In this document: one piece after another, positions 2,987 to 38,156 of the stretch
Position numbering within the stretch: position 1 is the stretch's first letter
How the letters are laid out: the number at the start of each line of letters is the position of its first letter
IMG/VR virus record: IMGVR_UViG_3300036770_000748
Coordinates: 1-38,156 of that record
DNA from: a virus
Length of the DNA stretch: 38,156 nt
Reading direction: 5' to 3' (one strand)
The notes under the pieces: model-generated
What the model was told of the DNA's origin: nothing
The model's database searches: none
What the model saw: only the letters and a program-made list of their open reading frames with translations
Position numbers and translations under genes: made by a program

Positions 2987-4093
2987 TCAGTCGGTGGCTA
3001 GTGGCATGATCACCGAAGCGATGCTTTCGGCTCGAAAGATCACCGCGTCTCCGGGGCCAGCCGCCTCGATCGTGATCGGCTCGGCGTCATCCACGCTACG
3101 AAGCAAGTCAACCACGAACGCAGGATCGAGCTTCACCGTCGCGGCCTGCCCGAAGTCCACCAGCGGGCAGGTCACACTCGACTGCCCAGCCTCGGAACTC
3201 TGTGCCGTCAGGTGCATCCCGTCCGCAGTGATGGCAAAAGTGACTCCCTTGCTCTGCTCGCTGGTGACTATTGCCGCCTGACGGGTAGCCGCCAGAAGTT
3301 CTGGCACTGCCACAGCCGAAGGCTTGGCGTCACGCTCGGGAAACACGTCACGCCACCGTGGGAACCGCCCTTCCACAAGCCGTGCCGTCACCGTCGTGCC
3401 CTCGATGCTGGCGACCACTTCGCTAGTCGTGGCTTCAAGCTGCACGCTCCACTCAGCGTTCCACGCCAGTGATGCCATCGCGTTGATCGCCCGGTCAGGA
3501 ATCAACGTGGTGCCATCGTCGGTCGCCTGATCCACGTCAATCTCGTAGGTGGCAAGCCGCCTGCCATCCGTTCCCACGAGCGTTACAACGCCGTCCTTCA
3601 TCTCGACGAGCACCGCCCCCAAGGCATAGCGGCTCGACTCGCTGTCGGTCGCGTAGGACACTGCCCGCACCGCCCGGACGAACTGATCCGCAGGAAGTCG
3701 GCAGATCGGCTTCGTGTCTGTCGGCTCCCACGTCGGAAACTCGGCGGCGTCCTCAGTCGGCAACGTCCACGTGCCGCCGCCGACGTTCACCGTGCAGCTG
3801 CTGCCACTCGGCGTGATCGTCACCTCGTCGGCGTTGGGACAGGCGTTGAGGATCGCCTGCAACCGCGCGAACGGCAACAGGATCGGATCGCCGTGCCAAT
3901 CAAGTTCGACCTGAATCTGCAACTCTAGGTCGGTGGCAGTCAGAAGTCCGTCACCAAGCCGGACGTTTTGCAGGATCGGCTTGGGGCTGCGAGTTGGCAC
4001 AGCCGTTTTTACGGCAGCCAGCGCCGCCTTCAGGTTGCTGGCTGAAAGCGACGTGCCAGTTCTTTTTTTCGTCTTCGTTGCTGTTGCGGTCAT
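2987..4093 (-). CDS. dnaN: DNA polymerase III beta sliding clamp homologue
   Basis: At 368 residues it has the full three-domain length of bacterial beta clamps. Recognisable signatures in order are PTRSPKPILQNVRL and TATDLELQI (domain 1), RYALGAVLVEM with LVGTDGRRLATYEI (domain 2), EGRFPRWRDVFP, and a C-terminus ending SVIMPLATD, matching the family's terminal IMP-L motif. The clamp ring tethers polymerase to DNA. I found no polymerase or clamp loader here, so it must be loaded by host machinery (inference). The start at 4093 has AAAGGAA seven bases upstream. About 14 extra N-terminal residues (MTATATKTKKRTGT) precede the normal clamp start. Confidence 0.93.
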   Translation of the reverse strand: MTATATKTKKRTGTSLSASNLKAALAAVKTAVPTRSPKPILQNVRLGDGLLTATDLELQIQVELDWHGDPILLPFARLQAILNACPNADEVTITPSGSSCTVNVGGGTWTLPTEDAAEFPTWEPTDTKPICRLPADQFVRAVRAVSYATDSESSRYALGAVLVEMKDGVVTLVGTDGRRLATYEIDVDQATDDGTTLIPDRAINAMASLAWNAEWSVQLEATTSEVVASIEGTTVTARLVEGRFPRWRDVFPERDAKPSAVAVPELLAATRQAAIVTSEQSKGVTFAITADGMHLTAQSSEAGQSSVTCPLVDFGQAATVKLDPAFVVDLLRSVDDAEPITIEAAGPGDAVIFRAESIASVIMPLATD

Positions 4094-4199
4094 GTCTCGA
4101 TTCCTTTCGTAGAGATGCGCCCACGGCAATGCCGAGAGCGAAAGTCAGTCCGTTCACCATCACTCCCACGCCGACAAGCGTGAGTTGTTCGATCGTCAT
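3951..4199 (-). CDS. Small membrane protein overlapping the clamp gene (82 aa)
   Basis: Starts with an ATG overlapping the previous stop (ATGA) and opens with a clear hydrophobic helix, MTIEQLTLVGVGVMVNGLTF onward to residue 28, then RKESRHDRNSNEDEKK. The first 35 codons lie in otherwise non-coding space before dnaN and look genuine. The remaining 47 codons run out of frame through the first 143 bases of dnaN and have low-complexity, shadow-like composition. An authentic gene with an unusually long overlap is my preferred reading; function unknown. Confidence 0.5.
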   Translation of the reverse strand: MTIEQLTLVGVGVMVNGLTFALGIAVGASLRKESRHDRNSNEDEKKNWHVAFSQQPEGGAGCRKNGCANSQPQADPAKRPAW

Positions 4200-4444
4200 G
4201 CCGCCCCGCCTTTCTGACCGGCGAGCGACTTGATGTACGCAGCCATGCGTGCTGCGTCGGCCTCGATCTTCTCGATCAGCCTCGCCTGACGCATCAGACG
4301 CACGTTCATGCCACGGATCGTGTCAGCACCCATCTCGCACAGCAGGCGGGTGTCATCGTCAACGTCATCGTCCCACGAGCGGATCGCCAGCATGTCGGCG
4401 ACGATCAGCGGCGGCTGCAAGTCGTATGGCTTCTCCTCGTTCAC
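4196..4444 (-). CDS. Hypothetical protein (82 aa)
   Basis: A soluble acidic/helical protein (NEEKPYDLQPPLIVADMLAIRSWDDDVDDDTRLL...) with a C-terminal helix rich in alanine and lysine. It starts with GTG whose last bases form the TGA of the upstream LexA-like gene (GTGA), and its own stop overlaps the next ATG. I recognise no domain. It sits between the LexA-type DNA-binding protein and the clamp, within the replication operon. Confidence 0.65.
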   Translation of the reverse strand: MNEEKPYDLQPPLIVADMLAIRSWDDDVDDDTRLLCEMGADTIRGMNVRLMRQARLIEKIEADAARMAAYIKSLAGQKGGAA

Positions 4445-4686
4445 TTCACACCTCCGATGGGGCGGATCGTGCGGCAGTGCCTATCGCTCCACGTCAGCCA
4501 ACCCTTCTTTCGCAACGGGTGCAGGTGGCACATTGCACCGTTCGGCGACCGGAAACTAAACGCCGCCATGAGTTCACGGATCGTCGGCGAGTAGCCTCGG
4601 CTCTCGCAGTACTCGACCACCCAGTCGTACACGGCGCGCTGCTTGGCAGTGACTTCGGACGGTGGCTTCTCGATGGTTTCGGTCAT
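4441..4686 (-). CDS. LexA-type winged-helix DNA-binding protein without peptidase domain (81 aa)
   Basis: Nearly the whole protein is a LexA N-terminal winged helix: VTAKQRAVYDWVVEYCESRG, then YSPTIRELMAAFSFRSPNGAMCHL, then the wing. LexA proteins continue with an S24 self-cleaving domain of roughly 120 residues; here translation stops at the end of the DNA-binding domain. It therefore could not be cleaved through RecA in the usual way. It may be a constitutive repressor of SOS-like boxes, or a competitor of host LexA (inference). The leader around the start codon is shared word for word with the gene at 8161..8484. Confidence 0.85.
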   Translation of the reverse strand: MTETIEKPPSEVTAKQRAVYDWVVEYCESRGYSPTIRELMAAFSFRSPNGAMCHLHPLRKKGWLTWSDRHCRTIRPIGGVK

Positions 4687-14077: not shown

Positions 14078-14298
14078 TCGGAAACTCCCGCAGGATTGAT
14101 CGTGACGCCACGTGCGGCGAGTGACTTGGACAAAGACTTCCCTAGCGCAGACTTCGTCGCCTTGAGTTCGCCGCTTGCCCACTGGCTGCGTATCGCTTCC
14201 ATTTCCGCCAGCAGCTTGCGATCAAGTCGCTCGTACCACGGCGCTGGGCCACGTCGAGTCGGCAAGCCAGCCATTACTTCATCGAGCAGCTTGCCCAT
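14041..14298 (-). CDS. Small HTH-like hypothetical protein (85 aa)
   Basis: The ATG overlaps the upstream stop by one base (TGATG). After a basic N-terminus (LPTRRGPAPWYERLDRKLLA) comes a helical segment, GLPT..KSALGKSLSKSLAARGVTINPAGVSEWLEKAK, whose alternating helices and AARGV...VSEWL resemble a helix-turn-helix. DNA binding is therefore possible but not demonstrated. Located between the HEXXH protein and the phosphoesterase. Confidence 0.6.
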   Translation of the reverse strand: MGKLLDEVMAGLPTRRGPAPWYERLDRKLLAEMEAIRSQWASGELKATKSALGKSLSKSLAARGVTINPAGVSEWLEKAKVSPQK

Positions 14299-14579
14299 CA
14301 CTCCTCCGTGAACCGTAGGCCCAGTTGCCACAAGACCTTTGCCAAGTCCTTCGCATGACGCACGACGACCTGCTCGTCATAGGCGGGGTTCAGTGCGTGG
14401 TACACCTCGTGAATCAAAAGCTCGAGGCTCGCCCGGTTGCGTTTCTTCCACACGCCTTCGTCGATCAAAATCTTCGATTCGTCGGCGTAGATCGTCCAAC
14501 CGTTCGCAGACCCACGCAGGCGGGTGATCCTCACCACCCATACACGACCGTCGATCGAGAAATGATGCGTCTCGCCCAT
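14298..14579 (-). CDS. HEXXH-motif mini-metallopeptidase-like protein (93 aa)
   Basis: Contains LLIHEVYHAL: H57-E58-V-Y-H61, the zinc-peptidase signature in an amphipathic helix. It follows beta strands (RVWVVRITRL, GWTIYADESKILID) and precedes a further helix with H75. The fold order, strands then HEXXH helix then a third candidate ligand, resembles a minimal SprT/zincin core, although the third ligand cannot be fixed. Known phage proteins of this size have unproven activity. It may process a host or phage protein, or be a degenerate, binding-only zincin. Confidence 0.68.
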   Translation of the reverse strand: MGETHHFSIDGRVWVVRITRLRGSANGWTIYADESKILIDEGVWKKRNRASLELLIHEVYHALNPAYDEQVVVRHAKDLAKVLWQLGLRFTEE

Positions 14580-24023: not shown

Positions 24024-25238
24024 CTAGTGTAGATCGACCCAAGAGGTTCCGTTGTAGACGCGGAGTTTGTTGTTTGCGGAGTTGTAATAAACGTCGCCTG
24101 TTTCGCCTGTTGCTGGGTCGGCAGCGAGTGGCACAAACCGCACAGCGCCTGTCGCCTTGATTACCATCCGGCTCGTCGCGCCATGATCCGCAAAGTCGAT
24201 GTATCCATTTTCCGGCCCGCGAAACTGCATATAGGCGGCGCGGGAGTTGATGTATCCATACCGCGTAGCGCCGTCGTTGCTGGTCATGTGGATGTCAGAG
24301 ATGCCATCAGAAGCGCGTCCGCGAACCTGCAAGCCTCTGGCACCAGAGTCGGCAACAACCGTCAGCGGAAACGTGCCGGTCGTCGCTCCTACGAGTAGCC
24401 GCCCAGACGAGTCCACCCGCACCCGTTCCGTCCCTGCGGTCGATATCGCCACGGCATCGGCGGCGGGCCAGTAGATTCCACTGTCGCTCGTCCCCGTCCC
24501 GCTTACCAACGCCGGAGCTGCCGCGCTGCCTGCGGCGACGGTGATGACGCCTGCAACGTCTAGGGCGGATGCGGGTGATGTAGTGCCGATGCCGACTCGC
24601 CCTGTTCCAGTAATCCGCATACGCTCGGCCACATTTGTGCCGAACAAAATTCCGTTGCTGCCGGTTGTGCATATGCCAACCGGACGCGCCGCGCCATAAA
24701 TTACAAAGCCACCAGCGCCTATGCCCATGAGTGATGACGCCGTGTAGGAATCACCGTACAGGAGATTTTCTGCCGCTATGGTTGTTCCGCTCGCGGCGAG
24801 CAACGACATTCGCGCGACGCTGGTGCCGTCAGGAGGCTGCAATACGCGAAGGCCGCTATCAATGCGGAGGCGATCATCTCCAGCCGTCTGGACGCTCACG
24901 GCATTATCCGCAGAAAAACGAATGGATGTGTCAGAGTCCCCAGCGTGAACGATCTTATCAGGTATCGTCACGTCGCCCGTGAACGTCGGACTCGCCGCCG
25001 GTGCCGCGTCCGTGATCCCGTAGCCTGACAGCGTGGTCGGCGTCGATGTGATCGTTGACCATGCCTGCGTATGCGATGCAGCAGCGTAATCCGCGAATAC
25101 AAACGACTGGATAGTGTTGGAGCCGTCCTTGAAAAACAGTTTCTTGTCGGCGTAGTTCAGCGCCAACTCGCCATGCTCAAGCGACGATGGCGTGGCAGAT
25201 GCGGTTCCTGATCGCTTGACCTTCACGGTGTTTGCCAT
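24024..25238 (-). CDS. Tail fibre/receptor-binding protein 2 (404 aa)
   Basis: N-terminal MANTVKVKRSGTASATPSSL EHGELALNYADKKLFFKDG is an attachment domain paralogous to that of the first fibre (26131..27114). It is followed by typical fibre repeats: SGYGITDAAPAASPTFTGDV, TGRVGIGTTSPASALDVAGV, TERVRVDSSGRLLVGATTGT, and a terminal TGDVYYNSANNKLRVYNGTS W. These are classic environmental-phage fibre motifs. The start is joined to the glycosyltransferase stop by TGATG. Confidence 0.85.
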   Translation of the reverse strand: MANTVKVKRSGTASATPSSLEHGELALNYADKKLFFKDGSNTIQSFVFADYAAASHTQAWSTITSTPTTLSGYGITDAAPAASPTFTGDVTIPDKIVHAGDSDTSIRFSADNAVSVQTAGDDRLRIDSGLRVLQPPDGTSVARMSLLAASGTTIAAENLLYGDSYTASSLMGIGAGGFVIYGAARPVGICTTGSNGILFGTNVAERMRITGTGRVGIGTTSPASALDVAGVITVAAGSAAAPALVSGTGTSDSGIYWPAADAVAISTAGTERVRVDSSGRLLVGATTGTFPLTVVADSGARGLQVRGRASDGISDIHMTSNDGATRYGYINSRAAYMQFRGPENGYIDFADHGATSRMVIKATGAVRFVPLAADPATGETGDVYYNSANNKLRVYNGTSWVDLH

Positions 25239-26119
25239 CAGCCGTCCTCCCTGCGTTCAAGCCAATAGTCCATCGCTCGAGCTGCACCGACAGACCACTT
25301 CAGCAATCCGTCATCACGGCGGTACACAGGCACTTCGCCATCCACCATCGGCGGAAAAAACTCTTCGCGGGTGACATACTTCCGATCGCCGCGATCGCCA
25401 TGCCACAGGTGCTTGACCTTTACGCCTGGCGGATAGCCAATACGAAAACGCTGAGCCAAAGCGTTCTCGCGGTACTTCGCAAACGACTGGCATCCGACGT
25501 TTAGTCGCCCTAGTTTCTGCTGGCTGTCCAAAAGGCTTTCCATCTCTGGATGATCCGACAACGCGAACGCGAACGCAGCGTCACCGCCACCGCCCCTGAC
25601 GTTCAGGTCGTAGATTCCGCCAAGCCGGTCGTATGCGTCTCTGGTCATCGCCCACGAGAACCCTACGTGGCAGCGGTGCAGGTGCGGCGCTCTGCCATCA
25701 ACCATGTCAGCCGCTGCGGATGGCCTGTCTTGAAAGATGTTGCCATGCCTGTCCAGCCAATAGCAGGTCTCAAACGGCTGGCAGATGTCGCACTTGTCCA
25801 ACAGGCGATCGCACTTCCGCAGCCAATCACGACTCAGCCGCAGGTCGGCGTCGAGAAACACGAGCTTGTCGGCCTGCGGCACCAGCTGCACGCCGAGATT
25901 CCACAGGTTTTCCTTCAGGAACATCACGTCGGCGTCGGCGTATGTCCGATCGGCATAGACGCCCGCAGGAATCGGCTGCGACTGCTGGCCCGGTAGCGTG
26001 GCCTGCGTAATCGCAACCGTCGCGCCCTGGTCAACCAACAACTCGACCGTAGTGCGAAAGTGCTGCTTCGGCAGTTCGTACTCGCATGGCGAGAAAAACG
26101 ACAGGATGACCGCGAGCAT
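25238..26119 (-). CDS. Glycosyltransferase, GT-A family 2-like (293 aa)
   Basis: After the N-terminal VILSFFSPCEYELPKQHFRT come LVFLDADLRLSRDWLRKCDR (DxD at 90-92), and GFSWAMTRDAYDRLGGIYDL followed by GGGGDAAFAFAL, matching the acceptor loop (GG.yD....G.GD...A.A) of phage GT-A enzymes. It lies between the two fibre genes and is coupled to the second (TGATG), so it may glycosylate fibres or modify the host receptor. An ORF 76 codons longer overlaps the first fibre and is not used. Confidence 0.82.
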   Translation of the reverse strand: MLAVILSFFSPCEYELPKQHFRTTVELLVDQGATVAITQATLPGQQSQPIPAGVYADRTYADADVMFLKENLWNLGVQLVPQADKLVFLDADLRLSRDWLRKCDRLLDKCDICQPFETCYWLDRHGNIFQDRPSAAADMVDGRAPHLHRCHVGFSWAMTRDAYDRLGGIYDLNVRGGGGDAAFAFALSDHPEMESLLDSQQKLGRLNVGCQSFAKYRENALAQRFRIGYPPGVKVKHLWHGDRGDRKYVTREEFFPPMVDGEVPVYRRDDGLLKWSVGAARAMDYWLERREDG

Positions 26120-26130
26120 CAGGCACCTCG

Positions 26131-27114
26131 TCAGAAGGTGCCGCCGTCGATGGTCGCATTGTCGATCGTCGCCGACCATGTGCCGCTGGTGATGGTGCCA
26201 ACGCTGGTCAGGCTTGAGGACGTGACGCCGCTGCCGAGTGTGTTGGATGACAGCACGCTGGTGCCGTTGATCTTGTATTCCTTGCCAGTGAGCAGGTTCA
26301 GATGCTCGCTGGAAGTCCAGGCGTCGGTGGCATCGACCCACTTCCACTCCTTGTCTGTCGTCCCTTTCAACGTCAAGCCGCCCCCGTCCGCCGTGGCATC
26401 GGACGGCGAGTACGTGCTGCCGAGTTCGATGTTCTTGTCATCGACCGTGACGGTCGTGCTGTTTACGCTCGTCACCGTGCCGTTGACCGTCAGATCGCCA
26501 CCGACAGTAAGCGAACCTGACAGCGTGCCGCCCGTCAGCGGCAGATACGTACCAGACAGGCTGGGGATGTCGGCGGCGGTCAACGCCCGAAACGCTGGGG
26601 CACCGTTGCCACCAGACGCTGGAGCAGCGAATACGTAGTTCTGCGTCTGGCTGGCGAGCGTGGCACTCAGCGTGCCGCTCGATGTGACAGGCGAACCGCT
26701 GACCGTGAAAATGTCAGGAAGTGACAGTCCCACGCTCGTGACGGTGCCGCCAGCAAGCCCGGCGATTTCGTCCTGAACCCACGCCGTGGTCGCGACTCGC
26801 GTCGAGTCATCGTCAGCACTTGGCGTGGTCGCCGTAGCAGCACCCAGTGCCGTCGTGCCAGAGAACGTGACGCTGCCGCTAAAGGTGTAGGTGCCAGCAA
26901 CTGTCTGCGTCAGGCCGCTCGACAGCCCGAGGTACGCGCCTTCGCCGCCGATCGCAATGACGCTGGTGGCAGATCCGCCAGCACCGCCAGTGCCAGTGCC
27001 GTAGTAGAGGATGTTCGACGCTTCGTTGAACGCGAGTTCAGCGTTCGCCAGCGTGCTGGGTGCGCCCGCGCCGCCAGCAGCTGCACGACGCTTGATTCTC
27101 AAAGTGTTTGCCAT
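26131..27114 (-). CDS. Tail fibre/receptor-binding protein 1 (327 aa)
   Basis: The N-terminus, MANTLRIKRRAAAGGAGAPS TLANAELAFNEASNILYYG, is the virion-attachment domain also found in fibre 2. Then come serine/threonine/glycine-rich repeats (GTYTFSGSVTFSGTTALGAA; RVATTAWVQDEIAGLAGGTV; GTYLPLTGGTLSGSLTVGGD) and ENNLL-type beta segments, ending TIDNATIDGGTF. Such low-complexity beta repeats are characteristic of trimeric fibres that bind receptors. Ser/Thr richness would also suit O-glycosylation by the neighbouring enzyme (inference). Confidence 0.85.
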   Translation of the reverse strand: MANTLRIKRRAAAGGAGAPSTLANAELAFNEASNILYYGTGTGGAGGSATSVIAIGGEGAYLGLSSGLTQTVAGTYTFSGSVTFSGTTALGAATATTPSADDDSTRVATTAWVQDEIAGLAGGTVTSVGLSLPDIFTVSGSPVTSSGTLSATLASQTQNYVFAAPASGGNGAPAFRALTAADIPSLSGTYLPLTGGTLSGSLTVGGDLTVNGTVTSVNSTTVTVDDKNIELGSTYSPSDATADGGGLTLKGTTDKEWKWVDATDAWTSSEHLNLLTGKEYKINGTSVLSSNTLGSGVTSSSLTSVGTITSGTWSATIDNATIDGGTF

Positions 27115-28324: not shown

Positions 28325-28521
28325 GCCTTCCTTCGTCTCCGCTTCGGCGTGGCGTCTGCCGTCTCGACGATCGGTTCAATCGCCGCCGTCTCGATCAGAC
28401 GCCGCTGAATGTCCTCAACCGCAAACTTCCGGGCGATCAGTTCCGCCGCCATGCCACCCGGCACATCGACAACCTGACCAGGACGGTACACACGCCACGG
28501 ACGTACAAACTTCAGTTTCAT
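28321..28521 (-). CDS. Small head-module protein (66 aa)
   Basis: MKLKFVRPWRVYRPGQVVDV PGGMAAELIARKFAVEDIQ: a short beta/alpha unit (RPWR.YRPGQVVDVPGG.A..LI...FA), a recurrent little protein beside phage capsid genes, with a basic tail TPKRRRRKA. It may bind DNA or assist capsid or connector assembly; no function is established. Both ends overlap neighbours by ATGA. Confidence 0.7.
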   Translation of the reverse strand: MKLKFVRPWRVYRPGQVVDVPGGMAAELIARKFAVEDIQRRLIETAAIEPIVETADATPKRRRRKA

Positions 28522-29255
28522 GATTCAGGCAGTCTCCATGCAGTTTCGGGCGGTTTGTTTGTCTTCATGTAGTCGCCAACGAACTGGAAAACAGGCTTTC
28601 CGAGATCCTTGCCGGGCCACGTCACCACGTACTCGCCATGCCCGATTGACACTCTAGGCGTGATGTAGACCTTGTTTCCAGACTCGCGCCACGTGCGCCA
28701 AAAGCCGATATCAGAGTCCACCCGGCCTTCGCCGTAGCTGCCCTGTGCATCGGGCTTCTCCCAGAACCACGGCTTTTTCATTCGCTTGAGCGCCGCCGTG
28801 GACAGGATCGTGCAGCCGAAGTGCGCCGTGTCCACCTGCTGTACAGGCTCGGCGAACCACGACGTAGGCAGTGTGGTCTTGCCGTCTTCTGGCGGGTTGT
28901 CGAGCGTGTTCAGCAGCGTGAGCATTGGCCTGCCGTCTTCACGCTTCACCTGGAGCGGGGCCAGTGCATCGCACTGAAACGTCATCGCCATCGCAAACAT
29001 CTGCTCGATGGATTCGCGGGAGACGAACGTGTCGAAGTCGAGCGTGATGATGTACTCACACTGATCTACAAACTGCTCGAGCATGCGTGTCAGGGTCTGT
29101 GACCAGAAGGCACCCTGCCCAAGCGTGGGGCGGATGCCGAGTGGCATCAATGCCTGTGCCCATCCGAAGAGGTTCGCCAGCGGCCCAAAGCGTGGCCCGG
29201 AGAGAATCGCCTCGGCACGGATCTCGACTTCTGTGCCACCGACCTTGACGATCAT
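28518..29255 (-). CDS. Glycosyltransferase-like protein in the head module (245 aa)
   Basis: The core is YIITLDFDTFVSRESIEQMF (D73-F-D75), followed by HFGCTILSTAALKRMKKPWF and DSDIGFWRTW...ITPRVSIGHGE, the order of GT-A glycosyltransferases (DxD, acceptor loop, catalytic acid and His). Activity is likely on sugar nucleotides. It lies between the major capsid and the 66-residue gene, so it may decorate the capsid or be a stable fellow traveller. Strong GGAGG site before the ATG. Confidence 0.75.
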   Translation of the reverse strand: MIVKVGGTEVEIRAEAILSGPRFGPLANLFGWAQALMPLGIRPTLGQGAFWSQTLTRMLEQFVDQCEYIITLDFDTFVSRESIEQMFAMAMTFQCDALAPLQVKREDGRPMLTLLNTLDNPPEDGKTTLPTSWFAEPVQQVDTAHFGCTILSTAALKRMKKPWFWEKPDAQGSYGEGRVDSDIGFWRTWRESGNKVYITPRVSIGHGEYVVTWPGKDLGKPVFQFVGDYMKTNKPPETAWRLPES

Positions 29256-30708: not shown

Positions 30709-30879
30709 TCAGCGGGCATCCCTCTTGCAGTAACGCACTTCAGAAAGTGTTGTTTTCACAAACACGACGCCACGGGCACCGCACCTTGGGCACCTGACGT
30801 ACCGCTGCCGCTCGTCACCGCAGGCGCGGCTCGACCGGGTACGCAGACGCTCGCCACATTGGCAACGCGGTTCAGCCAT
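30709..30879 (-). CDS. Small zinc-ribbon-like protein (56 aa)
   Basis: MAEPRCQCGERLRTRSSRACGDERQRYVRC PRCGARG... has CxC and CxxC knuckles (C6, C8, C30, C33) around arginines, like the Ogr/NrdR-type zinc ribbons. TGAGG lies seven bases before the ATG, which overlaps the protease stop by eight bases. The gene bridges protease and capsid, an unusual place for a regulator. It could bind single-stranded DNA or nucleic acid during late expression, but this is inferred from the ribbon alone. Confidence 0.7.
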   Translation of the reverse strand: MAEPRCQCGERLRTRSSRACGDERQRYVRCPRCGARGVVFVKTTLSEVRYCKRDAR

Positions 30880-31543
30880 TCCGCAGCCTCAGAGACCATG
30901 CAGCAGCTGCGTCACGCACGAGCGAACGCATAGCCTTTTTCACTTCCGGCTCGGCGTTGTGGTCGGCGTCCACCGCAGCCGCCTGTGCCGCCAGCCACGC
31001 TTCATACGAACGCTGGGCCACCACCGCAGACGTGGCGCTGCCATACGCTGGCACGTTCACCGGCCCAACCTCGTACAGCCCGGACGCCTCGACGATTTCG
31101 CGGATCGCCTTGCCGCCTTCGTCCGTGGTGAACCTCTCGCCCTTCTGGCTAACGGTGAACGCAAACGAACTGCCACGCAGATTCCGAGACCGCACGAGAG
31201 CAAGCACGTCACGACCGGCAGACGTGTCTGGCGGTTCCACGACGTACGAGATACCGCGATCGTCGGCGATGATCTCAAGCGTGCCAGCCGATTCCCGGCC
31301 CAGCAGCATGTCGCTGTTGTGGTTGTAGTACGAAAGGATCTCGCCTTTACCACGCTGGCGGTTCAGCACCTTGTCAAAGGCCCCCGGCAGAATTCGCTCC
31401 CGAAAGCCGCCGAGATCAAGCGACAGCCGATTGTACGGCACCGCCAGCCCACGGATCGCCTCGCGACCGCTGGCACGAGTCTCGATCTGAAGCTCGCATT
31501 CAGGGGCTTCGTCTACGGTCAGGCAACGGCGTTCAAGTTCCAT
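30872..31543 (-). CDS. Prohead maturation protease (HK97 family, 223 aa)
   Basis: Start at 31543 has AGGAGG nine bases upstream and overlaps the portal by 11 bases. The U35/S78 serine-protease markers are present: RGLAVPYNRLSLDLGGFRER ILPGAF, YYNHNSDMLLGR with H75, and RGSSFAF with S126 as nucleophile, then EVGPVNVPAYGSATSAVVAQR. It cleaves the capsid delta domain and scaffold after assembly, so it must act just before packaging. Order portal-protease-capsid is canonical. Confidence 0.9.
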   Translation of the reverse strand: MELERRCLTVDEAPECELQIETRASGREAIRGLAVPYNRLSLDLGGFRERILPGAFDKVLNRQRGKGEILSYYNHNSDMLLGRESAGTLEIIADDRGISYVVEPPDTSAGRDVLALVRSRNLRGSSFAFTVSQKGERFTTDEGGKAIREIVEASGLYEVGPVNVPAYGSATSAVVAQRSYEAWLAAQAAAVDADHNAEPEVKKAMRSLVRDAAAAWSLRLRNG

Positions 31544-32819
31544 CTGTGCTGTCCTCCTGTTCGTCCTCGGCGTCATCCGCCGGGCTGTTTTCTTCCTCGG
31601 CTGGCGGCTGGGGCATCGGCTCCGTCGCCGGTGCCTCTTCGCCTACCTTGTCGAGCGTGGTCATATTGAGTTGCACGAAGTGCTGGTCACCTTCCGGCCC
31701 GATCGGGTTCAGGTTCTCAAGCTCGCGGATCTCGTTGATCGTCATCCAGCCGTTCTGGAGTGCCGACACGTAGTACGCCGACCGGCTCGCGTGGTCGCCG
31801 CGCAGCAATCCGCTGACGCTGTGTTCCGCAAAGTACCGCTCATCGTCCACGATCAGGTCACGGCTGATGGCGGCTTCCCATCGCTTCAGGTGCGGCAGCA
31901 GGCAGTGCTGCACGAACTCCGTGCCCTGCACCTCGATGTTGCTGTAGGTGGATCGCGTCAGGTCTTGGATCATGTGCGGAGGCACACGGAACGCCCGACA
32001 GATCTCAATGACCTGATACTGCCGAGTTTCAAGGAACTGCGCCGCCTCATTGCTGCCGCTGAGTTCGTGGGCTTTTACGCCGTTGGGCAGCACCGCTGTG
32101 CGGAACGCCCGATCGGGTCCACGGTGCATGCGCTCCCACTGCTCGCGGAGACGCTCGGCGGCTTCCACCGGGATCGGGTTGTCAGACTCAAGGACAATGC
32201 CCGGCCTAGCTCCATTCCCGAAGTACGTTGACCCGTGTGCCTCAAGCGCCTGCGCCAGCCCGATGGCATTTCTGAAAAGCTGATACGTCGGCACCGGCTT
32301 CACGCCGTCCTCGGTCGTGAACCGCAGGGCGAAGATCTGCTCTTGGGCGTAGACCGTCTGGCGTCCGTTCGGCTCGCGGTACAGATACCGCAGCCTGCCG
32401 TCCTCGAGCCTCTCCACGTCCATTCGGCTACTGTGCAGCGGCCACAGTTCCGACACGGCACCACGGGCACCCGGGCGAATCTCGGCGTAGCTCGCGCCGT
32501 AGTGCAGGTACATGCCCGTCATCCAATCGCGGAACTCCTGCGCCGTCTGCCACGGATTCGGCTGCATGTGCAGCAGCCGATAGACTGGATGCTGCGGTGC
32601 CTTCTGCTTGCCGCCGTTCGCCATCCGCTCAAAGACGTGCAGCGGCAACGCCGAGACCGCGTCCGAGATCACACGGATGCACGCCGTGTACGCTGAGCAG
32701 GCCATGCTGTTGTCAGCGTTGACACGGATGCCGCTGGGTGTACGGGTGCTGGACACATCGGACCACTCGATGCCACGCAGGTCGTACATGCGATAGTCGG
32801 CAAGTGCGTTGTCACTCAT
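31533..32819 (-). CDS. Portal protein (HK97-like, 428 aa)
   Basis: Motifs VNADNSMACSAYTACIRVIS DAVSALPLHVFER, LLHMQPNPWQTAQEFRDWMT and LHYGASYAEI match Phage_portal proteins; the C-terminus is acidic, Pro/Glu-rich (APATEPMPQPPAEEENSPAD). The dodecameric ring is the DNA entry gate and docks the terminase. The start at 32819 forms ATGA with the terminase stop, so the packaging motor and its channel are coupled. Confidence 0.92.
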   Translation of the reverse strand: MSDNALADYRMYDLRGIEWSDVSSTRTPSGIRVNADNSMACSAYTACIRVISDAVSALPLHVFERMANGGKQKAPQHPVYRLLHMQPNPWQTAQEFRDWMTGMYLHYGASYAEIRPGARGAVSELWPLHSSRMDVERLEDGRLRYLYREPNGRQTVYAQEQIFALRFTTEDGVKPVPTYQLFRNAIGLAQALEAHGSTYFGNGARPGIVLESDNPIPVEAAERLREQWERMHRGPDRAFRTAVLPNGVKAHELSGSNEAAQFLETRQYQVIEICRAFRVPPHMIQDLTRSTYSNIEVQGTEFVQHCLLPHLKRWEAAISRDLIVDDERYFAEHSVSGLLRGDHASRSAYYVSALQNGWMTINEIRELENLNPIGPEGDQHFVQLNMTTLDKVGEEAPATEPMPQPPAEEENSPADDAEDEQEDSTDGT

Positions 32820-34420
32820 AGCGTGATGATGTCCCACGATTGATCAGGCGGTGCTGCCGTCGCTGTGGCGTGAAGCCCAAGACCCATGACCAGCGACACA
32901 ATGCCGTCGATGCGTTCGGTTGATTTCGCCTTGCTCGGTTTGATGTTGCCCTGATGGTCGCTCTGCACCGCCACGTTCGCAGCCATCCACGACAGCACCG
33001 GATGTCCTGCGTGCCGGATCTTTTCCGACAGCACAAGGTTTTCGAGTTGCTTCGCAGGGCTCGACATTGAGCCGTAGCCCTGCCCGAATCCTGTCACATT
33101 GATGCCATCTCCTTGCAGTTGCGTGGCGAGTTGCGTGGCGTTCCAACGGTCAATGCCAAGCTGCCGAATGTTGTATTTCTGCGACAGTTCGACGATGTCT
33201 CGCCGGATCACGTCGTAGTCGGTGCAGTTGCCATCCGTGACCCGGATGTACCCGTCGCGTATCCACCCGATGTAGTCCACCTTGTCACGCTGCGTCCGCT
33301 CGGCGGCGTTCTGTTCTGGCACCCAAAAGAACGGCATCACGTCAAAGGTGCCGTCATCGTCCTGGCTGACCAGCACCAGCGCCGACAGGTCCGTAGTGCT
33401 TGCCAAGTCCAGACCGGCATACCACTCCCGCTTCTCCAGATCGTCACGCAACGGCCCGCCACACTTGGCCCACGCATCAGGCGAAAGCCACCGCACGTCC
33501 TGCGTAGTCCAGACGTTGAGCCGGTAGCGCAGAAACGAGTTCAGCTTCGACGGCGACTGATCGGCTTCGCGGGCATCAGCGGCAAACGACTCCACCGTGA
33601 TCGTTTCGCCGAGCGACGGGTTCGCCTTGTGCCACGTTTTCTCGTCCTTCCAATCGTCCTCGGGTGACGCCGCATAGATGCACCCGAAGAAGGCCGGGTC
33701 TACTGACGGGTCTGCAATGCACCGCTCGGCGTAGGCGTGCTGTTCCCAGCAGATGCTCTTGCGGTCATACCCTGCCGTAGTGATTGACAGCAGCAAGGGC
33801 TGTCGCCTCGCCGCACCGCCATACCGCAGGGCATCCCACAGCCGCCGGTCTCGCTGGGCGTGCAGCTCGTCGAAGAGCAGAGCGTGGATATTCAGTCCTT
33901 CGGCCCGGAACGCATCGGCACTCAGCACCCGATAGAACGAGTTACTCGCCTTGTGGACGATGGTCTTCCGGCTGTCGATCACCTCAAGATGCCGCGACAA
34001 TGCAGGCGAAGCCCGCACCATACTTGCCGCCTCGCGGTAGATGATGCCTGCCTGCTCGCGGTCGCAAGCCGCACCGTACACCTCGGCACCAGGCTCCGAG
34101 TCGAATGCCGTCATGTACAGGGCGATACCGGCAAGCGTGGTTGACTTGCCCTGCTTCTTGGGAAGCTCGATGTACCCAACGCGATGCTGCCGCGTGCCGT
34201 CCGGGTTCAGCCTGCCGAAGAGTTCACGCAAGACGTGGTGCTGCCACGGCAACAGGATGAACGGCTTGCCAGCGTTCTGGCCCTTGCTGTGTCGCAAGAT
34301 CTTCTCGAAGAAGTGAACGACACGCTCGTACTTCTTCTGCCCTTCCGGGCAGAGATCACGCGCCGTGGAGCTTGAAGAAGTCTTCGACTTCGTCGGTTGG
34401 CTTCTCTTCCTTGCCACCAA
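32816..34420 (-). CDS. terL: Terminase large subunit (534 aa)
   Basis: The packaging ATPase domain has Walker A LPKKQGKS (86-93) and Walker B ALLFDELHA (D184, E185). The nuclease domain begins GLDLASTTDLSAL (D338) and continues with GIDRWNATQLA and DGIVSLVMGL, acidic metal ligands of the RNase H-like fold. The start is TTG (34420) or the adjacent GTG, because no ATG lies in the first 100 codons and AGGGTGAG stands just upstream. It overlaps the small subunit by 65 bases. Terminase_1/YmfN-like. Confidence 0.93.
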   Translation of the reverse strand: MVARKRSQPTKSKTSSSSTARDLCPEGQKKYERVVHFFEKILRHSKGQNAGKPFILLPWQHHVLRELFGRLNPDGTRQHRVGYIELPKKQGKSTTLAGIALYMTAFDSEPGAEVYGAACDREQAGIIYREAASMVRASPALSRHLEVIDSRKTIVHKASNSFYRVLSADAFRAEGLNIHALLFDELHAQRDRRLWDALRYGGAARRQPLLLSITTAGYDRKSICWEQHAYAERCIADPSVDPAFFGCIYAASPEDDWKDEKTWHKANPSLGETITVESFAADAREADQSPSKLNSFLRYRLNVWTTQDVRWLSPDAWAKCGGPLRDDLEKREWYAGLDLASTTDLSALVLVSQDDDGTFDVMPFFWVPEQNAAERTQRDKVDYIGWIRDGYIRVTDGNCTDYDVIRRDIVELSQKYNIRQLGIDRWNATQLATQLQGDGINVTGFGQGYGSMSSPAKQLENLVLSEKIRHAGHPVLSWMAANVAVQSDHQGNIKPSKAKSTERIDGIVSLVMGLGLHATATAAPPDQSWDIITL

Positions 34421-34829
34421 GTCTCACCCTGCTTGAAGGCGTCAGCCCAAACTCAGCCATTAGCGAAGCCTGGAGGCTCACTAATCCGCGATATAGCGGG
34501 CCTGCGGGGTTGGGTTTCACGCCACCCAAGTCGGTGTGCATCACCGGACCACTGGACCGCAACTCCAAAAGACACGCCTGCGTAGCAGCGTACACCTCGC
34601 ACAAAGTCGCCAACGCCTCGCCATCGGCCATCGTCAGCGTGCCGAGATCGAGCAAGATCGGCACGAGTTCCTGCCACTTCTCCACCGCGACCGGCTCGAC
34701 CATCAACCGCTTCGGCATCAGCGGCGCGCCGGGCGGCGCTGGCAGGTCGGGCCTGATCTTCCGCTTGCCGGGGTTGCCGAGCAGCTTCTTGACGCTCGCC
34801 GGTTGGGGCTTGGGTCCACGTTTTGCCAT
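34356..34829 (-). CDS. terS: Terminase small subunit (P27 family, 157 aa)
   Basis: MAKRGPKPQPASVKKLLGNP GKRKIRPDLPAPPGAP is the P27/Terminase_4 opening (K..LGNPGKR), followed by the helical core VEKWQELVPILLDLGTLTMA DGEALATLCEVYA. It binds the packaging site and regulates the large subunit. Followed at once by terL, in the standard order; an HNH gene precedes it, as in many HK97-like phages. Confidence 0.9.
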   Translation of the reverse strand: MAKRGPKPQPASVKKLLGNPGKRKIRPDLPAPPGAPLMPKRLMVEPVAVEKWQELVPILLDLGTLTMADGEALATLCEVYAATQACLLELRSSGPVMHTDLGGVKPNPAGPLYRGLVSLQASLMAEFGLTPSSRVRLGGKEEKPTDEVEDFFKLHGA

Positions 34830-34884: not shown

Positions 34885-35235
34885 TTACTCGTTGCCACCC
34901 CCGATGATCCGACCCACCCCACAATCGACGCACTTTGCCGCGCTCTCCCTGCGTGTCTTCCTGCTGTGGCACCTGATGCACAGCGTCTGTCCATTCGCCA
35001 CGTCATACCGTTCGCCACCCGCTGCGACAGGCACGATGTGGTCAGCATGGTTGGCCTGGTCGATGCGTCCGCACTGCACACAGGCCCACGAGTCACGAGT
35101 CAGCACAGCCTGCCGCCACTTCCTGTGTCGCTTGTCGCAGTAGCCACGCTGGGCAGCGTTAGGCCGGTTGGTGTCATCACGCCTAATGGATGACCTCAAC
35201 CTGATCGGTCTGTGCGTTGGGATGCGTTGTGGCAT
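34885..35235 (-). CDS. HNH endonuclease upstream of terminase (116 aa)
   Basis: The nuclease core is CVQCGRIDQANHADHIVPVA AGGERYDVANGQTLCIRCHS RKT with zinc cysteines (CxxC, CxxCH) and the catalytic HADHIVP. A basic N-terminus (RRDDTNRPNAAQRGYCDKRHRKWR) contacts DNA. HNH proteins beside the terminase are often required for cohesive-end cleavage with the large subunit. A second zinc-like pair near the end (CVDCGVG) is unusual. Overlaps the previous stop by TGATG. Confidence 0.88.
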   Translation of the reverse strand: MPQRIPTHRPIRLRSSIRRDDTNRPNAAQRGYCDKRHRKWRQAVLTRDSWACVQCGRIDQANHADHIVPVAAGGERYDVANGQTLCIRCHSRKTRRESAAKCVDCGVGRIIGGGNE

Positions 35236-35513
35236 CAGTTCTGTGGCTTGTCCTCTGGTGTTACCACGCTCGATGTATACACACGCTCGCCAGTGCGTGG
35301 CTGGAGTGCATACAGCAGCCGCGTCTGCTCGCTGATGGCTGTAGAGATCTCCTTCTGTGTCTCGGCCACATCACGCAGGAACTCCCTGTGAGCTTCAACC
35401 ATTGGAAGGATGATGTCCTGCCTGCCGACGTACAGCAGGGCAATGGCGAGCATGGTGACAAACCCATAGTCACGCAGGATTCCCAACGCCGTGTCCTTCA
35501 CTTGGTCAGTCAT
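35235..35513 (-). CDS. Holin-like membrane protein (92 aa)
   Basis: MTDQVKDTALGILRDYGFVT MLAIALLYVGR carries one membrane helix (about residues 17-33), and the rest is an amphipathic coiled coil (VEAHREFLRDVAETQKEIST AISEQTR). This topology resembles small class-III or BhlA-like holins, but no conserved family signature is certain. Position between other membrane proteins and the HNH/terminase pair supports a lysis role (inference). Start uses ATGA with the upstream gene. Confidence 0.62.
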   Translation of the reverse strand: MTDQVKDTALGILRDYGFVTMLAIALLYVGRQDIILPMVEAHREFLRDVAETQKEISTAISEQTRLLYALQPRTGERVYTSSVVTPEDKPQN

Positions 35514-35869
35514 CGTGTTAGCTCGTACTGGAGTGCGATGAGAATTGCCCGATTGGCCCGACGCTCCAACCACCATTTCAGCATCCATTGCACTATCCCT
35601 GTGACCAAGGCTTGCAGAAGCAGGTTCCAGACGACGCCGTATGACACGCCGTCAACATTCGTGCATAGGTGATGCAGACGCTTGACCGATCGCTCGACTT
35701 CTTTGGCGACTACCTCACGTTCGGTGTCGCTCGTGGCGTGAGTCATGTACTCAACGGGCCATGATTCGACGGCGAGTTGCACGAGGTCGTTGATCGTGTC
35801 GCGGCCCGCGATCCGCTTGCGTATTGGCAGGTCGTGCCATATCTGGGATTGCAACTCGTGGAGCGTCAT
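35510..35869 (-). CDS. Membrane protein of the lysis region (119 aa)
   Basis: Start at 35869 (ATGA with the lipoprotein gene); the upstream longer frame lies within that gene. MTLHELQSQIWHDLPIRKRI begins a soluble helical domain; the C-terminus has one membrane helix (VVWNLLLQALVTGIVQWMLKWWLERR) near residues 90-112, with a short basic tail. No family recognised. It may partner the adjacent lipoprotein as an i-spanin/o-spanin-like pair, though the topology is inverted relative to usual i-spanins. Confidence 0.58.
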   Translation of the reverse strand: MTLHELQSQIWHDLPIRKRIAGRDTINDLVQLAVESWPVEYMTHATSDTEREVVAKEVERSVKRLHHLCTNVDGVSYGVVWNLLLQALVTGIVQWMLKWWLERRANRAILIALQYELTR

Positions 35870-36183
35870 CGAGGAAGGCACCTCCCGTCTGGGCAGTCGG
35901 GCTGCAGAACGACGCTTTTGAGTTTCTTCCCGGTGCCCTTGCACTCAGGGCATTGGATCTTGACCCTGCCGTCGCCGATGATGCCAGTCCCGGCACAGTT
36001 GTCGCACTGGTCTGACTTCGGTGGCGTTGGCGTTGGTGCGATCTGGCTGCGGATCTTCAGGACCGCATACCCAGCCTCACACGCGAGATCGGCATAGATG
36101 CCGTTGTAATCAGCCGATGGCTGGCAGCCTGCACACAGCAGGATCAGAAGGCACATAAGTCTCACAGCTGGCCTCCAGTCCAA
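35866..36183 (-). CDS. Lipoprotein with DnaJ-type zinc finger (105 aa)
   Basis: MDWRPAVRLMCLLILLCAGC, a lipoprotein signal ending at Cys20 (lipobox LLCAGC, with Cys at -3), is followed by a linker and CDNCAGTGIIGDGRVKIQCP ECKGTGKK: two CxxCxGxG knuckles (C60/C63 and C78/C81), the zinc module of DnaJ. The TTG start at 36183 gives a normal signal length; an ATG nine codons later would shorten it to 11 residues. Likely an outer-membrane or periplasmic lipoprotein in the lysis/envelope set. A DnaJ zinc module on a phage lipoprotein is uncommon. Confidence 0.72.
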   Translation of the reverse strand: MDWRPAVRLMCLLILLCAGCQPSADYNGIYADLACEAGYAVLKIRSQIAPTPTPPKSDQCDNCAGTGIIGDGRVKIQCPECKGTGKKLKSVVLQPDCPDGRCLPR

Positions 36184-37082
36184 TCAGGCATCTTGGATGC
36201 CTTGAACCCCGTGAAGCCTGCGTAAGCGTAGGAGTCCTTGCCGGAAAGCATCTTGTCGCACGTGTCGGCATCCACCCAGAACGAGCAAACCTTGACCTCG
36301 TCAGGGATGTTCTGCGGGAAGTGCTTGCCGACCGTATTCGATCGCCCCCATGAGTTGCAGCACAGCAGGCCCGGACGCTTGCCCCAACGCAGACCGGCAA
36401 ACGTCATGCAGTGCCACCACACGCCGCCCGGCTTGCAAAAGCCATCCTCGTCACGGCTCATCGAAAAGCCTTGACCGCTGCACACGACCACCGGGTATCC
36501 GTTGCTGATCGCCTTGGCGGCTTCCATGAACGACGTGACCAATGTGGTCTCGGTGCATACCCGCTGCTTGGCAAACTGCTCGAGCGAGTCTGGCACGCCG
36601 CTGCGGCCCCACTCACGCTCCCGGCTTGATGAATGCGAGTCGAAACGCTGCCCGACGTAGTCCTGGCCGTAGTGCAAGCAGCCAAAGTCGCGGACGCTCT
36701 TGGCAGCGTGAAAGCCTGTCGATCCGTCGCCGCCTGTGTTTACACGCTGGCCGCGAGCCTCTACCCGGCTGAATCCGTAGATGCTGGCTTCAATCGTCCT
36801 GCCGCCCCACTGCTCTGGCTCTTTCCGCCAGTGAATGTCGCAGGCTGCGAGCAGGTCGATGCCGAGAGCCGATCCCCAGCCGACACATGAGCCTACGGAA
36901 CCTTGGCTACCGCGCTTCCATGACGGCATGCACCGCAGAAGCGACTGGTAGAGAAACACATCGGTCTTCTCGTCGGTCTTGAGATCAGGACCGGCGCTGG
37001 CGATCGTCGGGTGCGGCAGAGACGAAACGAACGCCTCGGCACCTGCCGGGTCTGGATCGTAGCCAAAGGCGTGAGGCTCCAT
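36162..37082 (-). CDS. Papain-like (C1-type) cysteine peptidase (306 aa)
   Basis: The catalytic set of papain is complete. SQGSVGSCVGW places Gln60 (oxyanion) and Cys66 six residues apart, as in papain's QGSCGSC. VWWHCMTF gives His224. CCNSWGRS gives Asn243 in the family's NSWG motif. No propeptide or signal sequence is visible. GGAAAGGG precedes the ATG at 37082. It sits in the coupled run of membrane proteins before the terminase, where an endolysin would be expected and where no lysozyme or amidase was found. It might cut cell-wall peptides or a host envelope protein. The C-terminus overlaps the lipoprotein by 22 bases. Confidence 0.85.
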   Translation of the reverse strand: MEPHAFGYDPDPAGAEAFVSSLPHPTIASAGPDLKTDEKTDVFLYQSLLRCMPSWKRGSQGSVGSCVGWGSALGIDLLAACDIHWRKEPEQWGGRTIEASIYGFSRVEARGQRVNTGGDGSTGFHAAKSVRDFGCLHYGQDYVGQRFDSHSSSREREWGRSGVPDSLEQFAKQRVCTETTLVTSFMEAAKAISNGYPVVVCSGQGFSMSRDEDGFCKPGGVWWHCMTFAGLRWGKRPGLLCCNSWGRSNTVGKHFPQNIPDEVKVCSFWVDADTCDKMLSGKDSYAYAGFTGFKASKMPDWTGGQL

Positions 37083-37083
37083 G

Positions 37084-37554
37084 TCAGCCCTTTCCGATGC
37101 CAGCCCATGCAATCGCCCGGCACACCTCGACGTAGGCTTTTCGCGTGTCCTCGTCCACCGGCTTCACCTCAAGACTCAGCACGCTTTCCATTGCCTTCTC
37201 AACGCCGTCGCGAAGCCCTTGGTAGCCGCCCGGCTTGTTCTCGCCGATCCGACGCCAGCCGATGTCGAGAGCAAGAATCGTGAACGCCCGCAGGCTGCGG
37301 GTGTCGGTAAAGACCACCTCGGTCGCGACGGCGTCACCGGCCACGACCACGGCAGCCTTCTCCCACAGTTGCTGCCACAGCAGCTTGTCCCCAATCGGGG
37401 CGGCTTTCAGTGCGTCGGCGATCGGCGTCACAAGGCGTTGCATCTCGTCACTCGGCGTAACACGGTCTAGCGTTGGCAGCGTCGGAAGTTGTGGCACGCC
37501 ACCGAATGCGACGAGCGCAAGCACGACCGCCGCGATGATTCGTGCGTAGGTCAT
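37084..37554 (-). CDS. Signal-anchored protein of unknown function (156 aa)
   Basis: MTYARIIAAVVLALVAFGGV PQLPTLPTLDR is a hydrophobic signal or anchor (residues about 5-20) with a Pro/Leu linker. The mature part is helical, LWQQLWEKAAVVVAGDAVAT EVVFTDTRSLRAFTILALDI GWRRIGENKPGGYQGLRDGV. I recognise no family. It lies just upstream of the peptidase (one base between stop and start) and downstream of the small membrane protein (ATGA), so the three are coupled. A periplasmic or membrane role is likely. Confidence 0.75.
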   Translation of the reverse strand: MTYARIIAAVVLALVAFGGVPQLPTLPTLDRVTPSDEMQRLVTPIADALKAAPIGDKLLWQQLWEKAAVVVAGDAVATEVVFTDTRSLRAFTILALDIGWRRIGENKPGGYQGLRDGVEKAMESVLSLEVKPVDEDTRKAYVEVCRAIAWAGIGKG

Positions 37555-37823
37555 TTCTTCGCCTTGGGTTGGTTGCCCAACATCACGTCGAGCAGCTGCT
37601 GACACAGTGCCACGCCGTCCACCAGGCCCGCAGAACGCAGCTTGTTGGCAAGTTCGAGTACCGTACGCATTTCTGCGATGCCGACTCCGGTGGCTTCGGG
37701 GGCGGCTTCTGGTCGGCTCTCTCGGAGCCAGGCGGCTGCTTTGCGGTATCCAGCCATGATTGCTGGCGCAGCAATGAGAGCCACAGCCGCCAACCCGGCA
37801 ACAAGTCGAATCGCATCGGTCAT
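37551..37823 (-). CDS. Second allele of the small membrane protein (90 aa)
   Basis: Same gene as 71..343, differing by 13 bases and 6 residues: L5I, L14V, V17I, S19A, S30A and A64S. Most changes lie in the membrane helix and keep its hydrophobicity. Start by ATGA overlap at 37823; the downstream gene start (37554) also overlaps its stop. Confidence 0.75.
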   Translation of the reverse strand: MTDAIRLVAGLAAVALIAAPAIMAGYRKAAAWLRESRPEAAPEATGVGIAEMRTVLELANKLRSAGLVDGVALCQQLLDVMLGNQPKAKK

Positions 37824-38122
37824 CGCTTGAGCGCCTCCACTTGCAGCAAGCACCAACGGACCAATGCCTCGCCTTCGGGTGTCCGCAGGACCGCTGCAAC
37901 GTGCCGCACAAGCTCGTCATCGGCGCTGGCGTTGGTCTTGCTGGCGAGCCATTCGCAAGCGTCGGCGATGATCAGTCCACGCTTGAACGGATCTGACTCC
38001 TGCGTGAACCGCTGCCCGTATCCGATCAGCGGTGCAAACGAATTGAGCAGGGCGATCTTCTGCCAGATGGACAGCGAATCGCCGTACTGCTGGGCTTCGC
38101 TGGCGGTCATCTCAAAACTCAT
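37820..38122 (-). CDS. Second allele of the conserved hypothetical protein (100 aa)
   Basis: Same gene as 340..642 with 12 base changes but only S65A and V67A at protein level. The predominance of silent changes shows the locus is under selection in both variants. Translational coupling (ATGA) is retained at both ends. Confidence 0.78.
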   Translation of the reverse strand: MSFEMTASEAQQYGDSLSIWQKIALLNSFAPLIGYGQRFTQESDPFKRGLIIADACEWLASKTNASADDELVRHVAAVLRTPEGEALVRWCLLQVEALKR

Positions 38123-38156
38123 GCGGCACCTCCGTCCTTTGAGTCTGCCGCAGAAT
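38119..38156 (-). CDS. Partial: C-terminus of the acidic hypothetical protein (complete at 639..908)
   Basis: Only the last 11 codons and stop lie here (SAADSKDGGAA). The sequence is identical to the end of 639..908, and on the circle the missing part is supplied by bases 677-908. The break has no biological meaning; it is the end of the contig. Confidence 0.8.
   Translation of the reverse strand, partial: SAADSKDGGAA

Follow-up and report, generated by a model that had tools for sequence, protein, structure and literature searches.

A predicted papain-fold peptidase as candidate enzyme of a lysis or egress module in phages of probable planctomycete hosts

The lysis genes of phage lambda stand before those of the terminase. 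Papain-like enzymes have also been recorded in phages. Tailed phages of the class Caudoviricetes have acquired xylellain-type C1A genes (PMC10380794), and BFVD holds Caudovirales protein models labeled "Peptidase_C1." The N5 domain of mycobacteriophage LysA is C39-like and belongs to the papain clan (PMC3314691). Here, we describe a papain-type peptidase encoded in a virus record of 38,156 bases (referred to as the window, meaning the whole stretch of DNA analyzed) and compare its locus with these systems.

A sequence-only reading of the window had proposed that one open reading frame (ORF) encodes a papain-type cysteine peptidase with the four expected residues, Q60, C66, H224, and N243 (in NSWG). 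We confirmed their positions in the 306-residue product, whose start codon is the ATG at 37082:

36162-37082, minus strand: papain-type (C1A) peptidase, 306 aa, assigned from the ORF, the AlphaFold2 (AF2) model and its fold matches, the C1 profile match, and residue conservation
36903-36905, minus strand: codon of catalytic Q60, from the sequence
36885-36887, minus strand: codon of catalytic C66, invariant and aligned with the C1 Cys
36411-36413, minus strand: codon of catalytic H224, invariant and aligned with the C1 His
36354-36356, minus strand: codon of N243, in NSWG, aligned with the C1 Asn

Peptidase relatives were found on at least 184 virus contigs, with none in INPHARED. The number of these contigs and the conservation of the residues indicate that the ORF is not a chance one. 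Conservation was counted over about 350 aligned family rows, many of them redundant; the cysteine and the histidine were invariant, the glutamine differed in 2 rows, and the asparagine was changed to glutamine in 3 prophage copies. The most diverged prophage copies still hold the catalytic residues. A search for variants without the tryptophan after GSCVG returned none. The prophage homologs in which QSW replaces NSW are those of loci L358, L359, and L360, and their activity may be altered.

A DNA-pattern search reached two more distant clades. Members of the first have about 310 residues at 54 to 59% identity. Those of the second, clade b, have about 370 to 410 residues at 33 to 38% identity and carry an N-terminal signal or transmembrane (TM) anchor. 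In clade b, the block lies between the head protease and capsid genes, and in some clades the peptidase adjoins tail-fiber genes. The peptidase of this phage has no N-terminal TM or signal-anchor segment, the criterion for a SAR endolysin.

Used by itself as a query, the peptidase had no match in Pfam, PHROGs, NCBIfam, or the PDB sequences. The C1 profile PF00112 matched nothing in this genome up to an E value of 10 and none of 45 family members; such a match is a detection threshold and not a defining feature of MEROPS C1. The CHAP and NlpC/P60 Pfam profiles left the peptidase family unmatched at E values up to 1. Because curated profiles were blind to the peptidase, we gathered relatives. 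From 14 close ones, AlphaFold produced a poor model (pLDDT of 40); it was superseded by a 45-sequence AF2 run, which gave a pLDDT of 90.6 and a pTM of 0.90. The top Foldseek match of this model was xylellain (E value of 1e-9), with cathepsins next. VIA-align returned a Z score of 21.9 over 238 residues for xylellain (3OIS), 19.6 for cathepsin B1, and about 18 for pro-papain, the cathepsins and papain ranging from 17 to 20. C1A entries filled both the Foldseek and the VIA lists, and the absence of CHAP and NlpC folds there is no proof. In the model, C66 is located at the start of a long helix and N243 after a strand, as in papain.

Profiles were also compared directly. Using hhalign, the peptidase family aligned with planctomycete proteins that are positive for Pfam C1 (probability of 92.7, P = 4.4e-7; five controls at 0.6 or below), and its Gln, Cys, His, and Asn were paired with the same residues of those proteins. 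At the profile level, this points to shared ancestry with recognized C1 proteins, although PF00112 is silent. A true papain fold (C1A, MEROPS C1) with the active site in place is thus well supported by the predicted structure, as the sequence-only reading had supposed.

That reading had also stated that the genome contains no other endolysin candidate. The ends of the window match without gaps, with 25 mismatches:

37481-38156, no strand: terminal overlap, 96.3% identical to positions 1-676

The genome can consequently be closed at about 37.5 kb and is near complete, which makes the hunt for a second endolysin meaningful. Pfam scans of about 48 proteins and PHROG scans of several further ones detected no other lysin (lysozyme, amidase, CHAP, M15, or M23); together they covered every protein except the small terminase subunit and a few short ORFs. 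The statement is thus supported for a near-complete genome. The mismatches between the ends are best read as strain variation within the assembly. As a result of the overlap (1-676 and 37481-38156), two genes are present twice in slightly different versions.

The remaining profile matches in the genome corresponded to head, tail, replication, recombination, and regulation proteins. The match of the tape-measure protein to the PHROG "lytic tail protein" was rejected as a lysin, being confined to the middle region and weak beside the tape-measure matches. Among the other genes, 2987-4129 codes for a complete DNA polymerase III beta clamp with three Pfam domains. The small product of 4441-4686 has a LexA DNA-binding domain, whereas no LexA protease domain can be seen in it. 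A 93-aa protein (14298-14579) has an HEVYH (HExxH) motif and is weakly SprT-like, possibly metalloprotease-like. Three ORFs appeared glycosyltransferase-like by eye (1235-2125, 25238-26347, and 28518-29255), only one of which had even a weak Pfam match; in relatives, the ORF at 1235-2125 recurs upstream of the cassette.

The peptidase gene belongs to a block whose order on the coding strand is B, A, peptidase, C, D, E, HNH, terminase small subunit (TerS), and terminase large subunit (TerL):

37551-37823, minus strand: protein B, 90 aa, one TM segment near the N terminus by hydropathy, no family match
37084-37554, minus strand: protein A, 156 aa, N-terminal signal or anchor followed by a helical domain, homologous to the gene upstream of prophage peptidases
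35866-36165, minus strand: protein C, small lipoprotein with an LCAGC lipobox, a CxxCxGTG zinc ribbon, and a C-terminal CPDGRC, from the sequence
35510-35869, minus strand: protein D, 119 aa, C-terminal hydrophobic segment, ATGA-coupled start, conserved in 82 of 84 loci
35235-35513, minus strand: protein E, 92 aa, one TM segment followed by a coiled-coil-like region, ATGA-coupled start, conserved in 82 of 84 loci
34885-35235, minus strand: HNH endonuclease, next in the block, by Pfam HNH and PHROG 589
34356-34829, minus strand: terminase small subunit, by position; conserved, preceding TerL in relatives
32816-34420, minus strand: terminase large subunit, by tblastn to annotated phage terminases

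The TGA stop of A and the ATG of the peptidase are separated by 1 base. The GTG start of lipoprotein C overlaps the peptidase stop, and the starts of D and E overlap the preceding stops (ATGA). These overlapping and abutting starts and stops bear out the coupling to membrane proteins and a lipoprotein that had been noticed from the sequence. When we looked for the same gene at the same place in related phages, we found a fixed block: the order A-peptidase-C-D-E is retained in 83 relatives, except for members that were undetected or lost at contig ends. A single hydrophobic segment is present in each of the proteins B, A, D, and E. Pfam and PHROG profile searches of B, D, and E gave no match to holin families, so these proteins are "holin-like" by architecture alone. 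With respect to a possible Rz/Rz1 spanin role, protein C has a lipobox, but it also holds a zinc ribbon.

Scanning bacterial genomes with the close relatives only revealed no host. With the distant clades added, a scan in which each bacterial species was represented by one genome led to Blastopirellula marina DSM 3645 and one metagenome-assembled genome (MAG). In B. marina, the gene is part of a prophage whose packaging genes, Terminase_6N and a lambda-type portal, differ from those of this phage. Of 392 planctomycete genomes, 13 carried peptidase homologs, most of which adjoined phage genes; in 7 of these 13 genomes, the distance to a phage portal gene was 9 kb or less. Several of the prophage copies carry an N-terminal signal or TM anchor. 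Upstream of the planctomycete homologs, there is usually a homolog of A, and a gene for a secreted thioredoxin often comes after them. Judging from these relatives, at about 41% identity, the host of this phage is probably a member of the Planctomycetota.

The partners of the peptidase were compared between phage and prophages. Protein A and the product of the gene immediately preceding the prophage peptidases are homologous (probability of 90, P = 1.6e-6; controls below 5). It was detected in 8 of the 392 planctomycete genomes, always adjoining the peptidase (chance of the genome overlap, 1e-13). We sought A beside some other enzyme in the phylum sample and found it only next to the peptidase, so there is no enzyme swap that could be used as evidence; no case of a canonical endolysin replacing the peptidase in the same cassette was found. 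Protein C is homologous, over its zinc-ribbon half, to one prophage lipoprotein with a zinc ribbon and a CGPC motif (probability of 96, P = 2.6e-9; controls below 1). The CGPC part of the latter had no Pfam match, and the zinc-ribbon lipoproteins showed no homology to stand-alone thioredoxins (probability of 2.2). This single prophage protein, in which the two motifs are joined, is the sole link between the lipoproteins and the thioredoxins. The secreted proteins encoded 3' of the prophage peptidases have significant thioredoxin domains by Pfam in 4 scanned loci, and two more were recognized by eye as close homologs of these. Secreted proteins following the peptidase often end in C-x4-C (CSSGRC, CEGGQC, CAGGQC, CDGRQC, and CPDGRC, in loci L359, L364, L365, and L366 and in protein C at 35866-36165).

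The sequence-only reading had envisaged a host with an atypical envelope. This agrees with the hosts of the relatives, which are Planctomycetota with a cysteine-rich wall protein. Cysteine-rich YTV proteins are present in planctomycete wall preparations (PMC8567305). They are confined to the class Planctomycetia, and Planctopirus limnophila can dispense with many of its peptidoglycan synthesis genes (PMC10632474). YTV domains were encoded by 13 of 13 peptidase-bearing genomes of the phylum sample, and also by the MAG, compared to 42 of 392 overall (Fisher test, 4e-14, not phylogeny-aware). Since YTV is limited to Planctomycetia, shared taxonomy alone can explain this association. Among genomes with a lambda-type portal gene, the peptidase was found in 12 of 30 with YTV and in 0 of 53 without it (P = 9e-7). 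The portal-gene control lessens the taxonomic confounding of the association but does not remove it.

We consider it somewhat probable that the peptidase is the enzymatic component of a planctomycete-phage lysis or egress module and cuts an envelope protein, most likely of the YTV layer. A fixed, coupled block before the terminase genes and the lack of a second lysin candidate argue for lysis. The position of clade b, between head protease and capsid genes, would be an unusual site for lysis genes and counts against it. The signals and anchors of clade b and the prophage homologs would place the catalytic domain outside the cytoplasm. The peptidase of this phage has no signal and would need a membrane-opening partner. 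According to our model, the C1A endopeptidase would reach the periplasm late in infection, with the small membrane proteins B, D, and/or E opening the inner membrane; in other clades, the peptidase would be anchored or secreted by itself. There, it would cut a host envelope protein, most likely the cysteine-rich YTV-type wall layer, either in place of peptidoglycan or in addition to it. A secreted thiol partner (zinc-ribbon lipoprotein C here, thioredoxin in the prophages) may reduce the disulfides of the wall protein. Alternatively, the partner may keep the catalytic cysteine reduced in an oxidizing compartment. The analysis showed the fold and active site, the conserved module with its gene order, the signals or anchors of relatives, and the planctomycete hosts of relatives; lysis itself is inferred. 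Of the earlier idea of an envelope hydrolase in lysis position, the C1A fold, the block, and the host envelope stood; its identity as a lysin is suggested by position, partner type, and the signals or anchors of relatives. We infer a host wall protein as the substrate, and the export route and the redox role of the partners are likewise putative. It is possible, though doubtful, that the module represents a new lysis type, in which a secreted or holin-released papain-type protease and a disulfide reductase or zinc-ribbon lipoprotein dismantle a cysteine-rich, disulfide-linked protein wall of the planctomycete host, with no reliance on peptidoglycan hydrolysis.

The same module could deliver an endolysin that cuts the stem peptide or cross-bridge of peptidoglycan, which we regard as rather unlikely. 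Planctomycetes possess peptidoglycan (PMC4432640), some phage lysins use papain-clan domains to cleave peptidoglycan peptides (PMC3314691, PMC10318531), and the position of the gene is lysis-like. However, the nearest folds are protein-cutting C1A endopeptidases and not CHAP or NlpC (with the caveat on list absence given above), no cell-wall-binding domain was recognized, and redox-type partners suit a disulfide-rich protein target better.

Somewhat less probable still is a nonlytic envelope protease, serving receptor removal, superinfection exclusion, or cutting of a surface layer for exit without lysis. Secretion or anchoring of the relatives, the occurrence of the peptidase in prophages, the presence of Cwp84, a surface-layer protease of Clostridioides difficile, among the structural matches, and the chronic release without lysis reported for a planctomycete phage (PMC10945688) would all fit. 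Against it, the peptidase is coupled within a block before the terminase genes as the only lysin candidate found, and the signal-less forms would require a membrane-opening partner. Action in the cytoplasm, by degrading host proteins or defense factors, would account for a copy without a signal or TM segment but is improbable, given that many homologs are secreted or anchored and that signal peptides or lipoboxes are present in the neighbors A and C. A role as a protease of virion maturation or of the tail is very improbable: in some clades the peptidase gene has tail-fiber genes beside it or is flanked by those for head protease and capsid, but this phage already encodes a Peptidase_S78 prohead protease (30872-31576), and signal-bearing homologs do not suit assembly in the cytoplasm.

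If the lysis reading with a wall-protein target is true, these phages lyse their hosts by a protease aimed at wall protein. As phages evolve enzymes against the load-bearing layer, this would put the long-standing question of what makes planctomycete cells strong to a separate, biological test. It would also provide a tool for opening planctomycete cells, which are hard to lyse, reveal a lysin class overlooked by current profile libraries, and make the peptidase a metagenome marker for planctomycete phages. In the literature, with subscription papers thinly covered, we found no report assigning a C1A enzyme to phage lysis or describing this module.

A papain-type enzyme in the lysis position of a phage had been called unusual. 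This needs qualifying for the gene as such, since C1A genes in tailed phages are documented in PMC10380794 and by the Peptidase_C1 models in BFVD. What is new here is the module and its likely target. In the passages on them, the recorded Caudoviricetes C1A genes are given no role, whereas the gene described here belongs to a fixed cassette with A and C in phages of Planctomycetota. Xylellain (3OIS) is the best structural match and shares the order QGxxGSC, His, and NSWG; the phage enzyme is only about 15% identical to it, lacks a PF00112 match, and has a different region after NSWG. Cwp84 (4CI7; Z score of 17.4) is likewise of the C1A type and acts on a protein layer at the bacterial surface, but it is a host enzyme with a lectin-like domain and not a phage protein. 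CHAP and NlpC/P60 endolysins share Cys-His catalysis and clan CA with the phage peptidase, which has no match to their Pfam profiles and yields C1A enzymes in the fold search. The LysA N5 domain also belongs to the papain clan and to a phage lysis enzyme directed at an unusual envelope; it is a C39-like domain of a modular peptidoglycan lysin, whereas the enzyme here is a stand-alone C1A protein. The lambda lysis cassette (holin, endolysin, and Rz/Rz1 spanins) resembles the present block in combining a soluble enzyme with a small lipoprotein and small membrane proteins, all coupled and upstream of terminase. It differs in that no part of the block described here matches a known lysis family in the profiles run, and in that the lipoprotein of this block carries a zinc ribbon.
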